This document shows positions 47,100 through 56,936 of a DNA stretch of 64,000 nt, in pieces. A model generated the notes under the pieces. The model worked only from the letters and a program-made list of their open reading frames with translations. It was not told the DNA's origin and searched no databases. This stretch comes from Marinomonas sp. SBI8L (GTDB taxonomy: Bacteria; Pseudomonadota; Gammaproteobacteria; Pseudomonadales; Marinomonadaceae): assembly GCF_001624705.1 (NCBI RefSeq), contig NZ_JSEO01000004.1:124001-188000 (forward strand). Reading direction: 5' to 3'. Each line of letters opens with the position of its first letter. Within the stretch, counting starts at the first letter, position 1. Both the position numbers and the translations under genes were made by a program.

Positions 47100-47612
47100 C
47101 TAACTTGGACTAGAGCATTTATTTATCTCAGCTAATGCTTGCTCTAATATATGCTCGACACCTTGATCAACCTCTATGAAAATTGCTTCATCAGGAGAGG
47201 GCTCCACTAAGGTATCAAATTGGTTTCTCAACATTTTTTCACCATTAAAAAAATGTCCTTGCCGCTTCTTATGTCGGCTTAAAATAATGTCGAAGGAGCC
47301 TTTGAGGTAAACAATTATTAGATCTTGATTATTTTCCCTGAGCATATTCCGATATTCAGGTTTTAAAGCAGAACAAGCAAGAATAAGATTAGAGTGGCGT
47401 ACAAATTCATTGTTAAGTGTTTTTAACCACCCCTCTCTATCATTATCATCTAGAGGAATACCACTGTTCATTTTATTTAAATTATTTTCCGTGTGAAAAT
47501 CATCGCCATCAATAAACAGGACCCCTAAAGCATCAGCGATAAGACGACCAATAAGACTTTTACCTGTTCCAGACACCCCCATAAGAAGTATTTTCTTATC
47601 TTCCCTATTCAT
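47100..47612 (-). CDS. gntK: Gluconokinase
   Basis: A 170-aa P-loop kinase that makes 6-phosphogluconate. Walker A is MGVSGTGKSLIGRLIA near residue 12. FIDGDDFHTENNLNKMNSGIPLDDNDREGWL is the substrate/lid signature of GntK-type gluconokinases. It lies 23 nt downstream of the sugar ABC ATPase on the same strand, so it belongs to the sugar transport operon. That placement makes gluconate a likely intracellular product of the imported sugar. Confidence 0.93.
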   Translation of the reverse strand: MNREDKKILLMGVSGTGKSLIGRLIADALGVLFIDGDDFHTENNLNKMNSGIPLDDNDREGWLKTLNNEFVRHSNLILACSALKPEYRNMLRENNQDLIIVYLKGSFDIILSRHKKRQGHFFNGEKMLRNQFDTLVEPSPDEAIFIEVDQGVEHILEQALAEINKCSSPS

Positions 47613-47635
47613 TACCTTCTACTCGCTATTTCAAA

Positions 47636-48727
47636 TTAAATACGGAAGCCTGTTTCAGTATCAAAAACAGAACATTTTGTTACCTCTATCTGAACTTGAA
47701 CAGAATCACCTTTTGTAAAAATTTGATCCGAGTTAACACAATGAGACAAAGTCTGATTAGCACTAAATTTAGACCATATCAGAGTTTCTGACCCCATAGG
47801 CTCAACTAATTCAATCATTCCACTAAAAACATTTTTAGCCTGCTCACAACCACCCCGAACAACAATATTCTCTGGGCGAACACCCAAAGTAACTTTCTGC
47901 CCTTCCATAGGTGAATTGATAAATTGATAGTCACTTACATCTATCAAAATATCTGAAGAGATAAAGGTTATCCCTCCTCCTTTTTTACTCAACCTCCCCT
48001 CAAGACAGTTCATCCCAGGCGACCCTAAAAATGTCGCAACAAACAAGTTTGCAGGTTTATTGTATACATTGTAAGGCGTATCTAACTGCTGAATAATGCC
48101 ATCTTTCATAACTGCGATACGGTCAGCAAGAGTCAAGGCTTCAATTTGATCATGAGTTACATAAATCATTGTCGATTTAAGTTTCTGATGTAACTTTTTA
48201 ATTTCTAACCTCAGCTCAGCTCTTAATTTTGCATCTAGATTTGATAAAGGCTCATCAAAAAGATAGATACTTGCGTCCCTGACTAAGGCGCGGCCAATAG
48301 CAACCCTTTGACGCTGCCCTCCCGAAAGAGCAGAAGGTTTTCGTTTAAGTAAAGGCTCCAACTGTAATAGCTTTGCCGCCCAATTCACTTTTTCTTGGAT
48401 AATCTTTTTTTCAACTCCAGCAATTCTTAATCCAAATGACATATTCTTCTCAACTGTCATGGTTGGATAAAGAGCATAAGATTGAAACACCATACCAATA
48501 CCGCGGTCTTTAGGGTCTGTCCAAGTTACATCTTTACCATCAAAATGAATGGACCCTCCACTCGTATCAATAAGACCACCAATAGCATTTAACAAAGTAG
48601 ATTTGCCACACCCTGAGGGTCCAAGCAATACAATAAATTCACCGTCCTCTATTGATAAATCCAGTTGATTAAGAATAAATGTTGTGTCATAGCTAATGTC
48701 TAGCTTATTAATATTTACGTTTCCCAT
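47636..48727 (-). CDS. Sugar ABC transporter, ATP-binding protein (MalK/UgpC type)
   Basis: A 363-aa ATPase with Walker A (GPSGCGKSTLLN), signature LSGGQRQRVAIGRAL, Walker B (IYLFDEPLSNLDAKLR), and a C-terminal TOBE/regulatory domain (LGVRPENIVV). This layout is typical of CUT1 carbohydrate importers. The ATG at 48727 follows AAAGGAT. The frame open further upstream lies within the permease gene. Confidence 0.95.
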   Translation of the reverse strand: MGNVNINKLDISYDTTFILNQLDLSIEDGEFIVLLGPSGCGKSTLLNAIGGLIDTSGGSIHFDGKDVTWTDPKDRGIGMVFQSYALYPTMTVEKNMSFGLRIAGVEKKIIQEKVNWAAKLLQLEPLLKRKPSALSGGQRQRVAIGRALVRDASIYLFDEPLSNLDAKLRAELRLEIKKLHQKLKSTMIYVTHDQIEALTLADRIAVMKDGIIQQLDTPYNVYNKPANLFVATFLGSPGMNCLEGRLSKKGGGITFISSDILIDVSDYQFINSPMEGQKVTLGVRPENIVVRGGCEQAKNVFSGMIELVEPMGSETLIWSKFSANQTLSHCVNSDQIFTKGDSVQVQIEVTKCSVFDTETGFRI

Positions 48728-48731
48728 GAGA

Positions 48732-49637
48732 CTATCCTTTAACTGATCCAGAGGCGATACCGCGAACAAACCAACGTCCTGAAGCGACGTAGATAATTAG
48801 AGGTACAAGTGAAGTGAGAATTGTGGCAGCCATATTTACGTTATAGGCTCGCTCACCAGTGGTGGTATTAACTATATTATTCAGTTGTACAGTCATAGGG
48901 AGATTATCATTGCCAGCAAAGACCAAGCCGATCAAAAAGTCATTCCAAATGTTTGTCACCTGCATAATGACAGCCACAATGATGATAGGAGTCGACATAG
49001 GTAGCATGATAATAAAAAATACCTTGAAGAATCCTGCACCATCAATTCTTGCTGCATTAAAGAGCTCTATTGGCAAGGTACTGTAATAATTACGGAATAA
49101 GAGAGTCATGATGGGCATACCAAAAATAACATGCGAAACAACAACCCCTGTTAAAGTCCCATAAATCCCAATTTCCGCGTACACCCTTATAAGTGGATAA
49201 ATAAAGACCTGATAAGGAATGAAAGCTCCTAGCAATAGGCAAGCAAACAAAATATTTGCACCCTTTATCTTCCAAAACGATAAAGCATAGCCATTAATAG
49301 CTCCAAACATCACTGAAATAATCACACTTGGAATAAGAATTTGAACTGAATTCCAGAATCCTACCTGTAAACCATTACACTCTAGCCCAGTACAAGCACT
49401 ACTCCATGCCACTTTCCAATAGTCCCAACTAACATCTTGAGGCAAAGCAAAAATGGATGACAAACGAATTTCATCAAGCTCTTTAAAAGAAGTAACTAAC
49501 ATGACATACAGGGGAAGCAGAAAGAACAGCGCAGTAACGAGCAAAAAGCCATAAATACCTATTCGTCCCCATTGCATCTGAATGGAGGAAGCCCGCTTTG
49601 AGGCAAACTTCAAATTTGTAGGTGAAATTGATAACAT
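48732..49637 (-). CDS. Sugar ABC transporter, permease (MalG type)
   Basis: A 301-aa permease with six helices. The EAA loop is ELFNAARIDGAGFFKVFFIIMLPMSTP. The gene overlaps neither neighbour but is within 4 nt of both, showing tight coupling with the other permease and the ATPase. Confidence 0.93.
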   Translation of the reverse strand: MLSISPTNLKFASKRASSIQMQWGRIGIYGFLLVTALFFLLPLYVMLVTSFKELDEIRLSSIFALPQDVSWDYWKVAWSSACTGLECNGLQVGFWNSVQILIPSVIISVMFGAINGYALSFWKIKGANILFACLLLGAFIPYQVFIYPLIRVYAEIGIYGTLTGVVVSHVIFGMPIMTLLFRNYYSTLPIELFNAARIDGAGFFKVFFIIMLPMSTPIIIVAVIMQVTNIWNDFLIGLVFAGNDNLPMTVQLNNIVNTTTGERAYNVNMAATILTSLVPLIIYVASGRWFVRGIASGSVKG

Positions 49638-49640
49638 AAA

Positions 49641-50534
49641 TTACCTACCTTGTTTCTTGATGTAATTTGAATATATAAAAGGAGCAATCAAACATAGAAT
49701 GGTAGTTAACATGACAGTAGACGCGGCAGTAGCAATACCAATATTGGCACGCTCAAACAAGTTATCCATAATGAACTTTGCAGGCACTTCACTTGCAACT
49801 CCTGGTCCGCCTCCTGTCATAGCAACCACAACATCATACATTTTGATAATGCTGATAGATAACAGAACCACTGTAGTAATAATCATAGGACGCAGCATTG
49901 GAAGAATAATACTGATATACACTCGCCACGCAGGAATACCATCGATTTTTGTCGCCTTCCACAAATCTTCATCGATACCGCGAAGTCCAGCTAATAGCAG
50001 CGCCATGACTAAACCAGCTCCCTGCCAAACAGCTGCAATGACAACTGTATAAAGCACCATGTCAGGGTTAACTATCCAGTCAAATTGGAAAGAGTCCCAC
50101 CCTAATGCTTGAACCGTTTTTTGAACACCTAACTGAGGATTAAAAATCCATTGCCACACTAAACCAGTCACAATAAACGACATAGCATAAGGAAATAAAA
50201 AAACAGTACGAAAGAAGCTTTCTGCTTTAATTTTTTGATCGATAAAAATAGATAAAAGAAATCCCAGAACAAAACAAATTACTAAAAACAAGAAGGCAAT
50301 AAGTAATAAATTCTCTAATGATGATATCCAGCGGGAAGTGTTAAAAAGTCGCTCATACTGAACAAAACCAACAAAATCATTTTTTGGTAGCATACGTGAG
50401 CTACTAAATGATAAACGAACAGACCAGAACATGGTTCCCATGTAAGCAACAAACACAGTTAATGCCATAGGCAATGCCGCTATATAAGCCAATAAGTTAC
50501 GCTTAAAATGCATTTGAATAGCGATTACATTCAT
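49641..50534 (-). CDS. Sugar ABC transporter, permease (MalF type)
   Basis: A 297-aa permease with six membrane segments. The EAA loop is EDLWKATKIDGIPAWRVYISIILPMLRP. It forms the importer channel with the next gene, and an 84-nt gap with a stable hairpin separates it from the binding-protein gene. Confidence 0.93.
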   Translation of the reverse strand: MNVIAIQMHFKRNLLAYIAALPMALTVFVAYMGTMFWSVRLSFSSSRMLPKNDFVGFVQYERLFNTSRWISSLENLLLIAFLFLVICFVLGFLLSIFIDQKIKAESFFRTVFLFPYAMSFIVTGLVWQWIFNPQLGVQKTVQALGWDSFQFDWIVNPDMVLYTVVIAAVWQGAGLVMALLLAGLRGIDEDLWKATKIDGIPAWRVYISIILPMLRPMIITTVVLLSISIIKMYDVVVAMTGGGPGVASEVPAKFIMDNLFERANIGIATAASTVMLTTILCLIAPFIYSNYIKKQGR

Positions 50535-50581
50535 TTTTCACCCCTTTAAAGTGGCTAGTAAATAAAACAATAGATAAGAAT

Positions 50582-50611
50582 GGAGACACAAACAATGTGT
50601 CTCCCCCCCCC
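50582..50611 (-). terminator. Intercistronic stem-loop with a nine-base C/G run
   Basis: GGAGACACA/TGTGTCTCC (50582-50590, 50596-50604) forms a perfect 9-bp stem just downstream of the binding-protein stop. It is preceded on the minus strand by nine consecutive G residues (plus-strand C at 50603-50611). There is no strong T tract, so the likely role is stabilising the upstream mRNA. Confidence 0.6.
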
Positions 50612-50618
50612 TAAACTA

Positions 50619-51845
50619 CTAGCCTTGTAAAGCCTGTGAAAGAATCTTTACAGCTTTTTTAGAAGACATATCCCTACTATTCCATACTTCTGTAATCGCA
50701 TCTTTCACAGAACCATAACGATAGGACTCCATAAGCATTGAGCCATCAGGAACTTGACGAGATTCATCCCTTAAGATTCTTGAACCTAATTGAGCACATC
50801 GCCCCATACTGGAAACATCAATATCAGTTCGAACAGGAATTGAGCCTTTCAATCGGTTAAACCTAATCTGCGTTAAAGGTTTAAGCATAGTTTCGACCAG
50901 CTTCTCTTGAGCGAGTATTTGCTGCTTATCCTCTGTTTTAGGGAAAACAAAAACATCTCCACCCACTATATATAATGAGTCATCACCTAATCCTGCAAAG
51001 CAGCCATAATCCCTATTTGGTCTTTTCTTAGCTTGGGTAAACTCTCCTTTAGCCCAATCCCCCATCACTTGTATACCTGCTTTATCATTAATCACTAGAC
51101 TGGTTGTATCATTCCAGTTTCTGCCTGGAGAGCCAGAATCCACATAAGGTTTAAGTTTCAAAAAAGTATCTACAACCTTATGAAATTCAGGAGAGTTAAG
51201 CGTTTTAGCATCTCGTTTTTTTAATACATCAAGATAAAGCTGTTTGCCGCCCACATTGCTTAAAACAGCCATAAAGAGCAGATTCTCCTGCCACTTTTGC
51301 CCACCTAAAGCTAACGGAATATAACCAGATGCTTTCAATTTATCTAAAGCTGCAAAGAGCTCATCAATAGTCTGTGGCTCTGTAGCAATCCCAGAATCAT
51401 TAAAGGCTTTTTTTGAATACCAAAACCAAGTAGGCATGTGGATATTGACTGGAGCCGCATAATAATGTCCATTCACTTTGATGGCATCTAAGGTCGGCTT
51501 TGGTAGGATTTCATCCCAGTCATTTGAGATAGCGATGGAATCTAAATTATTCAGCATTCCTTCAGCAATCATTTCATGATATTGCTGTGATGTATTAAAG
51601 AGTGCAGCCGTAGTAGGAGATCCGCCTATCATACGATTTATTGCCGCACTTCGTGCATTTGAACCACCAGCAACAGCACTATCTTTCCAACTTCCGCCTT
51701 CTGCTTCATAGGCGTCTGCCAATACTTTTATTGCGGCAGACTCACCACCGGATGTCCACCAATGCATAACCTCGGCTTCTTCCTTAGCGACTAGAGGGGT
51801 TGCGGCTAAAGAGATAGCTGCAGAAAGCATCATTATCTTAATCAT
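50619..51845 (-). CDS. Sugar ABC transporter, substrate-binding protein
   Basis: A 408-aa CUT1-type binding protein. The start is the ATG at 51845 behind AAAGG, followed by a signal peptide (IKIMMLSAAISLAATPLVA-KEEAEV, cleavage near residue 20). The mature protein opens VMHWWTSGGESAAIKVL, which is characteristic of glucose/oligosaccharide-binding proteins of this class. It is the first gene of the operon ending in gntK. The ligand is inferred, not seen, to be an oligosaccharide or aldonic sugar. Confidence 0.92.
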   Translation of the reverse strand: MIKIMMLSAAISLAATPLVAKEEAEVMHWWTSGGESAAIKVLADAYEAEGGSWKDSAVAGGSNARSAAINRMIGGSPTTAALFNTSQQYHEMIAEGMLNNLDSIAISNDWDEILPKPTLDAIKVNGHYYAAPVNIHMPTWFWYSKKAFNDSGIATEPQTIDELFAALDKLKASGYIPLALGGQKWQENLLFMAVLSNVGGKQLYLDVLKKRDAKTLNSPEFHKVVDTFLKLKPYVDSGSPGRNWNDTTSLVINDKAGIQVMGDWAKGEFTQAKKRPNRDYGCFAGLGDDSLYIVGGDVFVFPKTEDKQQILAQEKLVETMLKPLTQIRFNRLKGSIPVRTDIDVSSMGRCAQLGSRILRDESRQVPDGSMLMESYRYGSVKDAITEVWNSRDMSSKKAVKILSQALQG

Positions 51846-51904
51846 AGCGGTACCTTTATTTCTCATTTTTGTTCTTATGGAGTATTTAAGTTAGCACTCT
51901 TTTT

Positions 51905-51932
51905 TAATTTATGGAACCGGTTCCATAAATTA
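51905..51932. promoter_or_regulatory. Perfect 28-bp palindromic operator, probable LacI-family site
   Basis: The core TGGAACCGGTTCCA is flanked by symmetric AT arms. Every position from 51905 to 51932 pairs with its complement. It lies 60 nt upstream of the binding-protein ATG and about 180 nt upstream of the LacI-type gene. The central CCGG is typical of LacI/GntR-family operators. Confidence 0.85.
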
Positions 51933-52109
51933 TTTTAAACTCTACTTTTTTAAAGATTATTTATGTACTTTATCTTATTGTTTTCTATTAATTTAATGAG
52001 TAATAAATTTTTTATAAAAATTAAAACCTGTAAAAAACACTATAAAACTAGCATTTTAGATCTTATAATGGAGAAAAATTGTAGATTAAAACATCAAAGG
52101 CTTTGAAAT

Positions 52110-53114
52110 ATGGCAACAATTAAAGATGTAGCAAAACTAGCAGGAGTTGGTGTTGGAACTGTTTCCAGATATCTATCAGGAAAAAGCTCAATCTCCAGTA
52201 AATCAGGTGATAAAGTTGCTGCAGCTATGGCTGAACTAAACTACCGACCAAACAGCATGGCAAGATCCTTATCATCAAAAAAATCAAACATCATCGGTTT
52301 ATGGGTCCCTTCTTTCTCTGGGTCTTTTCATCGAAAAATGCTGCAAACTATTGAGCGAGAATTACGTAAGCGAGATAAACACATCATTTTAGCAAATGCA
52401 GAAGATAGCAGCTCAGACAAGGAACGTATTGATTGCCTAAACTACCTAATTGAGCGAGATTGTGACGGCATACTGATGTCTTGTCCGGAATTATCCGTAT
52501 TTGAATTAGCTAAAATTGAAGCTCGCTACCCCAAAGTCGTTTTTATTAATCGCGACATAGAAGATTTGGCCGAAAAAGCATTTAGCACCAACCATTATCA
52601 AGGAGGTCGTTTAGCCGCAAAGCATTTAGTTGAACTCGGCCATAAAAATATAGCCATAGTTACTGGCCGAATGAACGCACAGGACGCCCAAAGCAGACAT
52701 AAGGGTTTCATAGATGAGCTGCTAGCTTCTGACATTGAAGTCGACCCAAACCTAATAGAGTCAGGAGGCTATAGTTTCCAACAAAGTATGGAAGCAACTG
52801 AGCTGCTAATAAGTAAAAAGAAGCCATTCACAGCGTTATTTTGTTCAAATGACAATAGTGGCATGGCTGCTATTTCCAGCCTAACCAAACATGGATTTAA
52901 AGTAGGAAAAGACGTTTCTGTTATTGGCTATGATGACATAGACCTAGCAGAGTTCACATCCCCCCCTATGACAAGTATTAACATTCCACTTGAAGCAATC
53001 TCACGTAATGCTTGCCATCAAATTTTGAATCTATGTTATGGGGAGACTCACGCCATACAAAACAAGTTTGAGCCAACCCTATCCATTCGTGAATCAACTC
53101 ATTCAATTCTGTAA
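52110..53114 (+). CDS. LacI-family transcriptional regulator
   Basis: A 334-aa repressor. The N-terminal helix-turn-helix ATIKDVAKLAGVGVGTVSRYLSG and hinge ELNYRPNSMARSLSSKK precede a periplasmic-binding-like effector domain (IIGLWVPSFSGSF, then SVIGYDDIDLAEFTSPPMTS near the end). It is divergent from the ABC operon and 66 nt upstream of the GH94 gene on the same strand. It should control both through the palindrome at 51905-51932. Confidence 0.93.
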   Translation: MATIKDVAKLAGVGVGTVSRYLSGKSSISSKSGDKVAAAMAELNYRPNSMARSLSSKKSNIIGLWVPSFSGSFHRKMLQTIERELRKRDKHIILANAEDSSSDKERIDCLNYLIERDCDGILMSCPELSVFELAKIEARYPKVVFINRDIEDLAEKAFSTNHYQGGRLAAKHLVELGHKNIAIVTGRMNAQDAQSRHKGFIDELLASDIEVDPNLIESGGYSFQQSMEATELLISKKKPFTALFCSNDNSGMAAISSLTKHGFKVGKDVSVIGYDDIDLAEFTSPPMTSINIPLEAISRNACHQILNLCYGETHAIQNKFEPTLSIRESTHSIL

Positions 53115-53180
53115 TCAAATAGTGCTGACAAAAGAGAGTCATAAAACTTAATTTTACATTTAAACCCAGAGGGTATTTAG

Positions 53181-55538
53181 ATGACAATGTACATTGAAGG
53201 CGGTAAACGTTTTTTATTAAATGATCCCAAATTAGTCCCAAACTCTGCAGGCTACTTATGGAACAAACACATGATGATTCATATGAACTGTCAAGGTTAT
53301 GCCGTTGCGCAGTATATGAACCCAGAACCTAAAAAATACGCCCATGCCCCAAATTTAACTGCCAAAAGCTTTATGCAACCAGAGCAACCTTACTTTGCCA
53401 ACCACCCGGGTAGATTCTTTTATATACGAGATGATGAAACTGGAGACATGTTTTCAGCGCCTTACGCTCCTATGAAAACACCTTTGCAAAGCTTTGAGTT
53501 TCTCCCAGGGCTAAACGATATTTGTTGGAGAGTTAAAAACCAAGACATTTCTCTCGAGATAACACTCACTCTCGGAGAACAATCTCAAGCTGAGCTTTGG
53601 CATGTTAAGGTGATCAATTCAAGTAATTCAAAGCGTAAGTTGTCATTAGTCCCCTATTTTCCTGTAGGTTATATGTCATGGATGAATATGGGAGCACATT
53701 ATGACCACAAGCTTAAAGCTGTTGTTTGCACCTCAATAACTCCCTATCAAAAACTCGAAGACTATGAAAAAAACAAACACCTTAAAGACATAACTTACTT
53801 TGCTAGTGACTGCACACCAAATCACTTTGAAACAAGCGGTGTTCGATTTGAAGGACTAGGAGGTCTCCATAACCCAGATGCTTTAAGTGACCTAGCTACA
53901 CTATCAGATCAAGACTGCCACTATGAGATGCCAGCATGTGCAATGCAATTTCAAGTTAACCTAAAAAAAGATGAATCCAAGGAGTTTAACTTTGTCTTTG
54001 GGCCAGCTTTAGACAAAGAAGAAATTCAATCGGTTATATCTCAAACTCTAGGTGAGCAGAAGCAAGAGCAAATTCTTAACTACACAAACTACATTCAGTC
54101 TGGCCGTGGTGTAATAAAAATAAACACACCAGATGACTCCTTAAATCATTTCATTAACCATTGGCTTCCGAGACAAGTCTTTTATCACGGCGATACCAAC
54201 CGTCTCACCACAGACCCTCAAACACGAAATTACCTCCAAGACGGCATGGGAATGGCATATATTGATAGCTCAATTACTAAGAAAGTTATCCTTACTTCTC
54301 TATCACAACAAAAACACGATGGAGAAATGCCAGACGGAATACTACTAACTCCTGAGGCAAAATTTAATTATATAAACCAAATTCCTCATACAGATCATTC
54401 TGTCTGGTTAGCGCTTATTGTCGAAGCTTATCTTAATGAAACAAACGACTGGGATATACTCAATGAGCAGGTTTCATGGGTAGACTCTCAAACAAGAGAC
54501 ACAGTGTTAGAACATATTAACAGGGCCATGGATACAATGTGTCAAGCGCGTGATAGCAGAGGCTTGCCCTATATAGATCAAGGTGACTGGTGTGATCCCA
54601 TGAATATGGTAGGTCATAAAGGAAAAGGGGTTTCTGGCTGGCTAGCACAAGCGTTAAGTGTTGCACTACAAACATGGATTAGAGTTTCCAAAGAAGGTAA
54701 CAATCCAAACAAGATTCGCCATTACCAATCAATAATTGATCAGCTAGCAAGCATTACAGAAACCTTCTTATGGCAAGGTGACTGGTATGCACGAGGAATT
54801 ACCGATGACGGCATAACTTTTGGCATTCCACAGGACAAAGAAGGCCGTATCTTCCTCAACACACAAAGTTGGGCATTTTTAGCCAACATGCCAAATAACG
54901 AACAAAAAGAGCGCATGCTAAAAGCCATTGACGAACAACTTGATACGCCTTTTGGTGTAATGTTATGCGCTCCAGCTTTTACAGGTATGCGAGAAGATAT
55001 AGGTAGAGTAACTCAAAAATGGCCTGGGTCAGGAGAAAATGGCTCAGTATATAACCATGCCGTTGCTTTCTATGCCGCCAGTTTGTACAAAATTGGAGAG
55101 CCTGATAGAGCGTTTAATACATTACGTAAAATGATTGCAGACCCAAACTGTGAAACCTTTACCCAAAGAGGTCAGTTGCCTATATATGTTCCAAACTACT
55201 ACCGTGGTGCGTACTATCAATATCCAAGTACTGCAGGGCGCTCAAGCAATCTCTTTAATACTGGTACAGGAGCTTGGTTCTATCAAATGATCATTGAAGA
55301 GATGTTTGGCCTCAAGGGCTGTAATGATGGCTTAGAAATCACACCCAAATTGCCAAAAGCTTGGCCAGAAGCAAGCGCTAAACGCCTGTTTCGAGGTGCT
55401 AGCTTAAGCATTCACTATATTAGAGTAAAAGAAAGCTCTGAATGCAGTATTAGGCTTGATGGGAGAGCGCTAGATTCTAATGTGGTTAAAAACATTGAAT
55501 CTGGAAAACAATATTTTGTAGAAGTAAGGTTTAAATAA
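53181..55538 (+). CDS. GH94 family glycoside phosphorylase, probable cellobionic acid phosphorylase
   Basis: A 785-aa GH94-type protein with an N-terminal beta-sandwich and a C-terminal (alpha/alpha)6 barrel. GLPYIDQGDWCDPMNMVGHKGKG near 460-482 holds the general-acid Asp of the GH94 DW(N/C)D motif (residues 469-472). The length matches cellobionic acid phosphorylases rather than the much longer beta-1,2-glucan enzymes. The distinction from cellobiose or chitobiose phosphorylase rests partly on context. The locus includes a gluconokinase, which is needed only if one product is gluconate. The reaction would be cellobionate plus phosphate to glucose-1-phosphate plus gluconate. Confidence 0.75.
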   Translation: MTMYIEGGKRFLLNDPKLVPNSAGYLWNKHMMIHMNCQGYAVAQYMNPEPKKYAHAPNLTAKSFMQPEQPYFANHPGRFFYIRDDETGDMFSAPYAPMKTPLQSFEFLPGLNDICWRVKNQDISLEITLTLGEQSQAELWHVKVINSSNSKRKLSLVPYFPVGYMSWMNMGAHYDHKLKAVVCTSITPYQKLEDYEKNKHLKDITYFASDCTPNHFETSGVRFEGLGGLHNPDALSDLATLSDQDCHYEMPACAMQFQVNLKKDESKEFNFVFGPALDKEEIQSVISQTLGEQKQEQILNYTNYIQSGRGVIKINTPDDSLNHFINHWLPRQVFYHGDTNRLTTDPQTRNYLQDGMGMAYIDSSITKKVILTSLSQQKHDGEMPDGILLTPEAKFNYINQIPHTDHSVWLALIVEAYLNETNDWDILNEQVSWVDSQTRDTVLEHINRAMDTMCQARDSRGLPYIDQGDWCDPMNMVGHKGKGVSGWLAQALSVALQTWIRVSKEGNNPNKIRHYQSIIDQLASITETFLWQGDWYARGITDDGITFGIPQDKEGRIFLNTQSWAFLANMPNNEQKERMLKAIDEQLDTPFGVMLCAPAFTGMREDIGRVTQKWPGSGENGSVYNHAVAFYAASLYKIGEPDRAFNTLRKMIADPNCETFTQRGQLPIYVPNYYRGAYYQYPSTAGRSSNLFNTGTGAWFYQMIIEEMFGLKGCNDGLEITPKLPKAWPEASAKRLFRGASLSIHYIRVKESSECSIRLDGRALDSNVVKNIESGKQYFVEVRFK

Positions 55539-55646: not shown

Positions 55647-56900
55647 CTAAAAATACTTCCCAGTAATTACCCTAGCTGGCTCTCTTTGCATTATGGTTTT
55701 GCCATCTTTCACTGAGAGCAGCACTTCACCTTGTTTGCGAATTACGCTATAGTCATCTTCACCATCCAATAAAATAAAGCTTGCAGGCTTACCTACTTCA
55801 ATGCCGTAAATATCTTCTATGCAGAGGGTTTTAGCACTGTTGTCCGTTATGAGACTCAAGGAGGTGCTGAAGTCTTGATAACCCATCATTTGACAAATAT
55901 GTAAGGCAAAATCCAAGGTGCGAAGCAGCTTGCCATTCCCAAGGGAATACCAAGGATCAAAAATAGAGTCTTCACCAAGGCATACGTTGATACCTGCGGC
56001 ATTAAGCTCTTTAACTCGCGTCACGCCACGGCGTTTAGGGTAGGTATCAAACCGACCTTGCAGGTGAATACTTTCTGTTGGACAAGAAACAAAGTTAATG
56101 CCTGAATTTTTCAATAAACGAAAGAGTTTAGAGCAGTAGGCATTATCATATGAATGCATGGCTGTGGTGTGGCTTGCCGTTACCCTGTGCCCCATCTTAT
56201 TAAACAGGGCTTCACAGGCAAGCAGTTCTAAAAAGCGTGAATTAGCATCGTCGGTTTCATCACAATGCACATCGATTAACCTGTCGTATTTCTGGGCTAA
56301 TTCAATGATTTTTTTGACCGAGGCCTCACCTAATTCACGAGTATATTCAAAGTGTGGAATGCCACCTACCACATCTGCGCCAATTTCTAGCGCTTCTATC
56401 ATGAGGTCTAAACCACCTTCATAAGAGAGCAATCCATCTTGTGGAAAAGCCACCACCTGAATATTGATTTTATCTTTTAATTCATCACGAATTGCACAAA
56501 GTGTTTTCACACCAATCAAGCTTGGATCTGTGGTATCTGCATGGGTTCTGACATGTTGCACGCCATTTTCAACAAGTAGCTCTAGGGTTTGATAAACTCG
56601 GCTGCGAATATCTTCTTCATTGAGCATGGGCTTGCGCTCACCCCAACGCTCTATTCCCTCAAACAAGGTACCTGAGTTATTCCAATTGGGCTCACCAGCA
56701 GTTAATGCTGCATCAAGATGAATATGAGGCTCTACAAAAGGCGCGCAGGCAAGCTTGCCTTTTGCATCAAATACGCCGTCATGCTGGGGCAAGTCAAGGT
56801 AGTCATGTTGAACATCAATTGAGGTAAATTTTCCATTTATTATTTTAATTCTGTGAAGTTCTATTTTACCACGTAAACGGGCGTTAATCAGTTCCTTCAT
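55647..56900 (-). CDS. Cytosine-deaminase-like amidohydrolase (CodA family, altered substrate residue)
   Basis: A 417-aa metal-dependent deaminase that tracks E. coli CodA along its length: PFVEPHIHLD (metal His), LFEGIERWGERK, VVAFPQDG, IPHFEYTRE, VHCDETDD (His and catalytic Glu), TASHTTAMHSY. The E. coli Asp313-Asp314 pair appears as GEDSIFDPWY, so the metal Asp is kept but the neighbouring substrate-contact Asp is Ser. I use the ATG at 56900 behind GAGGGA. It is 36 nt downstream of a BASS-type transporter gene. It may deaminate a pyrimidine-like compound other than cytosine. Confidence 0.82.
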   Translation of the reverse strand: MKELINARLRGKIELHRIKIINGKFTSIDVQHDYLDLPQHDGVFDAKGKLACAPFVEPHIHLDAALTAGEPNWNNSGTLFEGIERWGERKPMLNEEDIRSRVYQTLELLVENGVQHVRTHADTTDPSLIGVKTLCAIRDELKDKINIQVVAFPQDGLLSYEGGLDLMIEALEIGADVVGGIPHFEYTRELGEASVKKIIELAQKYDRLIDVHCDETDDANSRFLELLACEALFNKMGHRVTASHTTAMHSYDNAYCSKLFRLLKNSGINFVSCPTESIHLQGRFDTYPKRRGVTRVKELNAAGINVCLGEDSIFDPWYSLGNGKLLRTLDFALHICQMMGYQDFSTSLSLITDNSAKTLCIEDIYGIEVGKPASFILLDGEDDYSVIRKQGEVLLSVKDGKTIMQREPARVITGKYF

Positions 56901-56936
56901 ATTTTCCCTCATGACTTCTTTGTATTAATTAAATAG

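Follow-up and report, generated by a model that had tools for sequence, protein, structure and literature searches.

A likely cellobionic acid uptake and phosphorolysis cassette in Marinomonas sp. SBI8L

Overall organization of the locus

The window analysed here is a stretch of 64,000 nucleotides from Marinomonas sp. SBI8L (contig NZ_JSEO01000004.1, positions 124,001 to 188,000), numbered from its first letter. At 47100-55538 it holds seven genes in two divergent arms, which share a gap of 243 bp (Table 1). The genes of a solute-binding protein (SBP), two permeases, an ATP-binding cassette (ABC) ATPase and a gluconokinase (gntK) run leftwards in this order, and the genes of a LacI regulator and a GH94 phosphorylase run rightwards. 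The preliminary description, made from the sequence alone, had placed a gluconokinase, a complete CUT1 importer, a LacI regulator and a 785-residue GH94 enzyme in one divergent locus; all seven genes were confirmed at the positions it gave, and the Pfam and NCBIfam assignments match its gene names. Taken as a whole, the locus is very probably a cassette for the uptake and phosphorolysis of cellobionic acid. C1-oxidising lytic polysaccharide monooxygenases yield aldonic ends, and cellobionate is one of their soluble products.

Table 1. Features of the divergent locus, in window coordinates.
Feature	Position	Strand	Evidence
GntK-type gluconokinase	47100..47612	-	TIGR01313 162.5 bits (cut-off 113.75); 1knq (solved gluconate kinase) E 1.4e-39
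ABC ATPase, MalK/UgpC type	47636..48727	-	PF00005 (ABC_tran), PF17912 (OB_MalK), PF08402 (TOBE_2)
CUT1 permease 2	48732..49637	-	PF00528 (BPD_transp_1); GlcU model 159 bits, under cut-off 340
CUT1 permease 1	49641..50534	-	PF00528 (BPD_transp_1); GlcT model 107 bits, under cut-off 360
9-bp hairpin between SBP gene and first permease gene	50582..50604	-	Terminator-like scan
SBP, GltB/GtsA glucose-binding family, phosphorylase-linked clade	50619..51866	-	SBP_bac_1; 5xpj 283.1 bits, 5dvf 280.6 bits
28-bp perfect palindrome TAATTTATGGAACCGGTTCCATAAATTA, predicted LacI operator	51905..51932	.	Between the divergent genes
LacI-family regulator	52110..53114	+	PF00356 (LacI), PF13377 (Peripla_BP_3)
GH94 cellobionic acid phosphorylase, 785 aa (assigned by homology)	53181..55538	+	Supersandwich and catalytic domain; 4zle 949.5 bits

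The phosphorylase

Comparison of the GH94 protein with solved structures matched 20 sequences. The cellobionic acid phosphorylase (CBAP) of S. degradans, SdCBAP (4zle), scored 949.5 bits, and the other 19, among them cellobiose, chitobiose, cellodextrin and laminaribiose phosphorylases, scored 194.4 bits or less. The best cellobiose phosphorylase reached 178.6 bits and the chitobiose phosphorylases, which were compared by score only, 170.4 and 135.6 bits. The protein is 51% identical to SdCBAP over 776 positions, while a cellobiose phosphorylase and the domain of a cyclic glucan synthase share 25.5% and 25.6% with it, respectively. The accessible part of the review PMC8950772 names 4ZLE as cellobionic acid phosphorylase Sde_0906. 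The window protein has all three of the residues Asp472, Arg609 and Lys613 (SdCBAP numbering). Among 87 aligned rows, one of them a fragment gapped at these positions, Asp472 is found in all 86 rows with a residue and the Arg609/Lys613 pair in 82 of the 86, including all 82 rows of the CBAP clade (80 named loci, SdCBAP and the window). The pair is replaced by Glu/Tyr in cellobiose phosphorylase and by Tyr/Tyr in cyclic glucan synthase and in two further rows (L083 and L084). We take Asp472 to be the catalytic aspartate, and Arg609 and Lys613 to be the contacts of the gluconate carboxylate in SdCBAP.

The preliminary description had favoured cellobionic acid over cellobiose and had proposed placement in a GH94 tree as the check, with grouping among cellobiose or chitobiose phosphorylases speaking against it. 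In a tree built by a quick method, a split with a support of 100 leaves the window enzyme on the same side as SdCBAP, and it groups with the enzyme of Vibrio galatheae at 96, so that the proposal held in this respect. As outsiders this tree has three rows of the cyclic-glucan-synthase type and a single cellobiose phosphorylase, whose branch is very long; the fragment L119 was left out. Therefore, the enzyme is assigned by close homology as a cellobionic acid phosphorylase (presumably EC 2.4.1.321), and it adds a member to a known class.

The importer and its binding protein

The importer appears to be the less known part of the locus and a separate branch of the glucose-importer family. Among solved structures the SBP matches 5xpj and 5dvf best, then 8hqq, with scores ranging down to 259.5 bits. 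We take 5xpj and 5dvf to be the glucose-binding protein of P. putida, the species of the 5dvf and 8hqq chains being likewise our assumption. With 280.6 bits to 5dvf the SBP belongs by sequence kinship to the GltB/GtsA glucose-binding family, and it shares a WW..GGE motif with the Pseudomonas glucose-binding proteins. Twelve glucose-contact residues of the glucose-binding protein are given in the accessible part of PMC7927077. Seven of them are retained in the cassette SBP (Trp35, Trp36, Glu41, Trp250, Trp270, Asp303 and Lys339), and Gln90, Lys92, Asn301 and His379 are replaced, hence the glucose pocket is not intact. A change of Gly68 to Ser was dropped from this list, as two alignments disagree at the Gly68 column. 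The genome encodes a second SBP of the glucose family, on C69, which keeps 11 of the 12 contacts, all except the alignment-dependent Gly68, and falls in the glucose-binding clade.

The cassette SBP belongs to a clade of 23 members with a support of 100/100, separate from the genome's own glucose-type SBP. Every member lies beside CBAP, and the clade covers Vibrio and Alphaproteobacteria. Of the 80 named CBAP loci, 21 have an SBP of this clade next to a divergent lacI-gh94 pair, and two of the 21 (L014 and L017) lie on contigs that end before all four importer genes are visible; where the ATPase is visible, its identity across the cassette loci is 63-76%. The recurrence of the cassette is not due to chance. 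A search with the SBP in 274 genomes of the window's class returned the window itself as the only match above 500 bits, and in 297 genomes of the Pleomorphomonas order it returned six matches above 550 bits, all six beside CBAP. The CBAP search had already returned five of these, and the remaining one (L183) adjoins GH94, GntK and Edd genes.

A sister tier of SBPs scoring 351-434 bits comprises 22 loci, of which 19 were fetched together with one clade member. No GH94 gene was found in any of the 19 stretches, some of which stop at contig ends. Asn92 is present in 19 of 19 of these proteins and Gly301 in 18 of 19, and His379 is lost in all 19. Gln90 behaves differently from these three positions: it is Leu in 22 of the 23 clade members, whereas the 34 rows outside the clade have 32 Gln, one Met and one Leu, the last in the distant L133. 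The change of Gln90 to Leu thus remains as a nearly clade-specific one, together with 18 other positions including His97 and Arg370. A position was counted as such if at most two of 32 outside rows shared the residue, with L133 (Leu90) and L135 (Gln90) left out as too distant. Ser69, Ser93, Tyr96, Met144, Pro145 and Arg370 are invariant in the clade and His97 is found in 22 of 23 members. Arg370 and His97 might be candidates for holding the acid group of the ligand. From sequence and gene linkage, cellobionate is the presumed substrate of the importer.

The sister-tier loci (L184-L202) lie mostly beside a LacI-like gene and encode a pocket unlike the glucose type. Five were scanned; a Gfo/Idh/MocA protein follows the importer genes in each of them, and an AP_endonuc_2 protein does so in four. 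Proteins of these two families are associated with 3-keto-glucoside routes, which suggests that the sister tier may serve such routes.

Gluconokinase and the fate of gluconate

The gluconokinase gene closes the importer operon and starts 23 bp past the ATPase gene. Its product is the sole TIGR01313 match in the genome of 5.19 Mb, in which FGGY-type gluconokinases were not searched, and it did not reach two stricter gluconokinase equivalog models. No GntP permease was found in the genome by a search that was positive in seven of 14 control genomes and did not extend to TRAP or MFS gluconate carriers. Therefore, a service of this kinase for gluconate from outside is unlikely. An Edd protein is encoded on C23 (997.5 bits, cut-off 708).

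In 31 of the 80 named CBAP loci, a GntK-type gene and the GH94 gene lie no more than 6 kb apart. Thirteen of these 31 carry the ABC importer, 11 an MFS_2-type transporter and three a tripartite ATP-independent periplasmic (TRAP) system, and four carry none of them; in one of the four (L027) a GntP permease gene adjoins. Edd-like genes lie near GH94 in 11 of the 80 loci.

A shared operator between the arms

LacI relatives with 47-80% identity are encoded in 24 of the 80 CBAP loci. The operator core TGGAAYCGRTTCCA is present upstream of lacI in all 24, with nine exact copies and 15 copies with one mismatch, and in none of the other 56 loci at one mismatch or less; the pattern had been derived after inspection of some of these same loci. 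The exact core occurs once in the Marinomonas genome. This suggests one switch for importer and kinase on one side and regulator and enzyme on the other, acting through the predicted operator. A wider regulon cannot be claimed, because the genome-wide search gave 35 forward sites (one exact, one with one mismatch and 33 with two) and 133 sites for the reversed control pattern.

A second operator-like site with two mismatches lies at 52154-52167 within lacI, overlapping the codons of VGTVSR in the recognition helix. Relatives have similar sites, and this one may only reflect the coding sequence.

Carriers around the phosphorylase in other genomes

Neighbours of CBAP were recorded within 6 kb at thresholds of 400 bits for sbp, 250 for lacI, 55 or 60 for gntK, 150 for MFS_2, 200 for Edd, 80 for DctM and 150 for GntP; contigs that end early, for example those of L028, L032 and L077, can conceal neighbours. 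The 80 loci comprise 21 with this ABC importer, 24 with MFS_2 and three with TRAP, and none with the ABC importer and MFS_2 together. In the GH94 tree the three carrier labels need three changes, compared with 18.4 in shuffles, and all 22 ABC rows fall with seven others in a branch with a support of 81. The comparison shows that ABC, MFS_2 and TRAP carriers swap around one enzyme. The TRAP systems and the GntP that adjoin CBAP in L012, L013, L062 and L027 agree with an acid substrate.

Two Vibrio loci, L008 (8377-12857) and L009, have the phosphorylase and the gluconokinase after another gene, which encodes an aldehyde dehydrogenase in L008; none of the sought importers lies near either. Examples of Paenibacillus loci with the phosphorylase and neither a sought importer nor GntK are L031, L033 and L038.

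History and ecology of the cassette

The CBAP enzyme was found in none of 35 sampled genomes of the same genus, one of which (G008) has a GH94 relative with 28% identity of the cyclic-glucan-synthase type. The genes left of the cassette are presumably pspF, pspA and pspC. Five genomes of the genus have a pspF match of about 60%, and the right flank is present beside it in two of them, G023 and G017; other genes occupy this place in the remaining three. In G023 only 33 bp separate pspF from the next gene of the right flank, compared with 9.85 kb in the window, where this interval holds the cassette and a deaminase gene; in G017 another short frame lies between them. The simplest explanation is that this lineage gained the cassette, with loss in other lineages as the alternative. 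The base composition of the cassette interval is unremarkable (GC 0.387, and 0.399 for the window).

No AA10 and no GH5 protein was found in the genome by searches that did not cover other oxidising enzymes, GH6, GH9 or further cellulases. A scan of the genomes of 47 of the 80 CBAP loci found AA10 in nine: two of 21 with the ABC cassette, six of 17 with MFS_2 and one of nine others. Since the cassette kinase is the sole TIGR01313 match and neither GntP nor AA10 nor GH5 was found, it is plausible that the organism is a scavenger of oxidised cellulose made by others. The preliminary description had already suggested the use of fragments made by other microbes; the lack of AA10 and GH5 fits this idea, the case for which remains circumstantial. 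Several cassette carriers belong to marine genera, Vibrio among them.

Further features of the locus

The open reading frame of the ATPase opens at a TTG at 48769. Judged from the translation, the start is probably the ATG at 48727. The hairpin at 50582..50604 is a possible point of mRNA processing or attenuation. The gap after a binding-protein gene is a frequent place for setting binding-protein mRNA levels. The terminator-like scan is in itself no evidence for this hairpin, because it gave nine sites in the region and a mean of 8.4 in shuffles. Right of the cassette, at 55647-56912, lies a cytosine deaminase-like gene (NF006685, 588 bits, cut-off 483), which may have been acquired together with the cassette or on its own.

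Proposed pathway and alternatives

Based on the seven genes and their relatives, we propose the following route. Cellobionic acid would cross the outer membrane, probably via a porin, as no TonB receptor is encoded among the seven genes. The SBP with its changed pocket would capture it in the periplasm, and the two permeases and the ATPase would import it, as suggested by sequence and gene linkage. The GH94 enzyme, by homology to the crystallised CBAP, would then phosphorolyse it to glucose 1-phosphate and gluconate. The gluconokinase is expected to convert gluconate to 6-phosphogluconate, which the Edd encoded in the genome could channel into the Entner-Doudoroff route; the enzyme families are evident and the flux is presumed. 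LacI would repress both arms from the one palindrome, an operator that is conserved, until the sugar acid or a product of it is present. We also think it fairly probable that the importer is a dedicated ABC importer for an aldonic disaccharide, whose SBP clade left the glucose family, became locked to CBAP and a shared operator, and spread as a cassette among Vibrio and its likes and Alphaproteobacteria, mostly in hosts without a detected AA10 that would live on the oxidised cellulose of others.

Several observations weigh against these proposals. None of the sought carriers or kinases lies within 6 kb of CBAP, at the thresholds used, in the Bacillota loci, which make up 25 of the 80 and are mostly from Paenibacillus; four of the 25 have weakly similar sugar-ABC permease genes nearby. 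Eight of the 21 importer-type loci have no GntK-type gene within 6 kb, one of them (L028) ending 416 bases past the GH94 frame. The preliminary description had accepted the gluconokinase as meaningful only if the GH94 products include gluconate. The sole TIGR01313 match, the lack of GntP and the presence of Edd strengthen this link, but in view of the eight loci the "only if" was too strong. In the SBP, the changes of Lys92 to Asn and Asn301 to Gly and the loss of His379 mark a shift from the glucose type and not cellobionate as such, because they are common to the sister tier without GH94; our first reading of them as marks of a cellobionate importer was weakened by those 19 loci. Finally, the SBP has its best matches among solved structures in glucose-binding proteins, and since it also keeps seven of the 12 contacts, its sequence still allows glucose as the ligand.

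This last point underlies an alternative in which the enzyme is a CBAP and the importer carries glucose or another monosaccharide, being merely co-regulated, with cellobionate entering otherwise. We consider this unlikely. The genome has another SBP in the glucose-binding clade with a nearly complete set of contacts, the cassette SBP has lost four of them with Leu at position 90 nearly confined to its clade, and this clade was not met away from CBAP in the 274 and 297 genomes searched. The substrate might instead be another glucosyl-aldonate or a glucosyl-uronate, such as laminaribionate, gentiobionate or a glucosyl-glucuronate of a marine polysaccharide. The cassette carriers include genera that we take to be marine, where beta-1,3-glucans are common, and an identity of 51% to SdCBAP would permit a change of linkage. 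However, the window enzyme lies in the SdCBAP clade with the same Arg/Lys pair, and the linked gluconokinase favours gluconate rather than a uronate as product, hence this possibility is also doubtful. That the GH94 protein is an ordinary cellobiose or chitobiose phosphorylase, the better known members of the family, with the gluconokinase as a chance neighbour, is extremely improbable. Such an identity was rejected because of scores far lower than that of CBAP and the Glu/Tyr of cellobiose phosphorylase at positions 609 and 613; a GntK gene near 31 of the 80 clade members also argues against a chance neighbour. Overall, the reading of the preliminary description, cellobionic acid rather than cellobiose, is supported.

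Relation to known systems and significance

The enzyme of S. degradans (Sde_0906; PDB 4zle, 4zlf, 4zlg and 4zli) shares with the window enzyme about half of its residues, including Asp472 and the Arg609/Lys613 pair. Its neighbours in the tree are mostly beside an MFS_2-type transporter (the genes around Sde_0906 itself were not inspected), whereas the window has an ABC importer. In Neurospora crassa, according to the accessible text of PMC4537572, CBT-1, CAP and a gluconokinase achieve the same sequence of import, phosphorolysis and gluconate phosphorylation, but this route is fungal and its importer is of the major facilitator superfamily (MFS); the same text makes no mention of a gene cassette, and it also bears on cellobionate as a C1-oxidation product. 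The Pseudomonas glucose importer GltB/GtsABCD (5dvf and 8hqq; PMC7927077, in its accessible part) belongs to the same importer family, and differs from the window system in the four replaced contacts and the separate clade of the SBP. Similar to the route proposed here, AscB of E. coli is linked to bacterial growth on cellobionic acid in the accessible part of PMC4403981, where uptake with phosphorylation and a phospho-beta-glucosidase are hypothesised instead, and where the entry route of cellobionate into E. coli is stated as unknown.

The preliminary description had called a dedicated importer the less explored part, and this holds for the SBP clade, which appears to be uncharacterised; no bacterial cellobionate ABC importer was found in the open-licence literature, covered mostly at the level of titles and the beginnings of abstracts. 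The fate of cellobionate in bacteria is partly known for enzymes and not for uptake. The importer clade, for which the ligand is predicted, and the predicted operator form the new part, next to an enzyme that belongs to a known class. The locus supplies an SBP, a regulator and an operator for this step, and may provide a gene marker for scavengers of oxidised cellulose.

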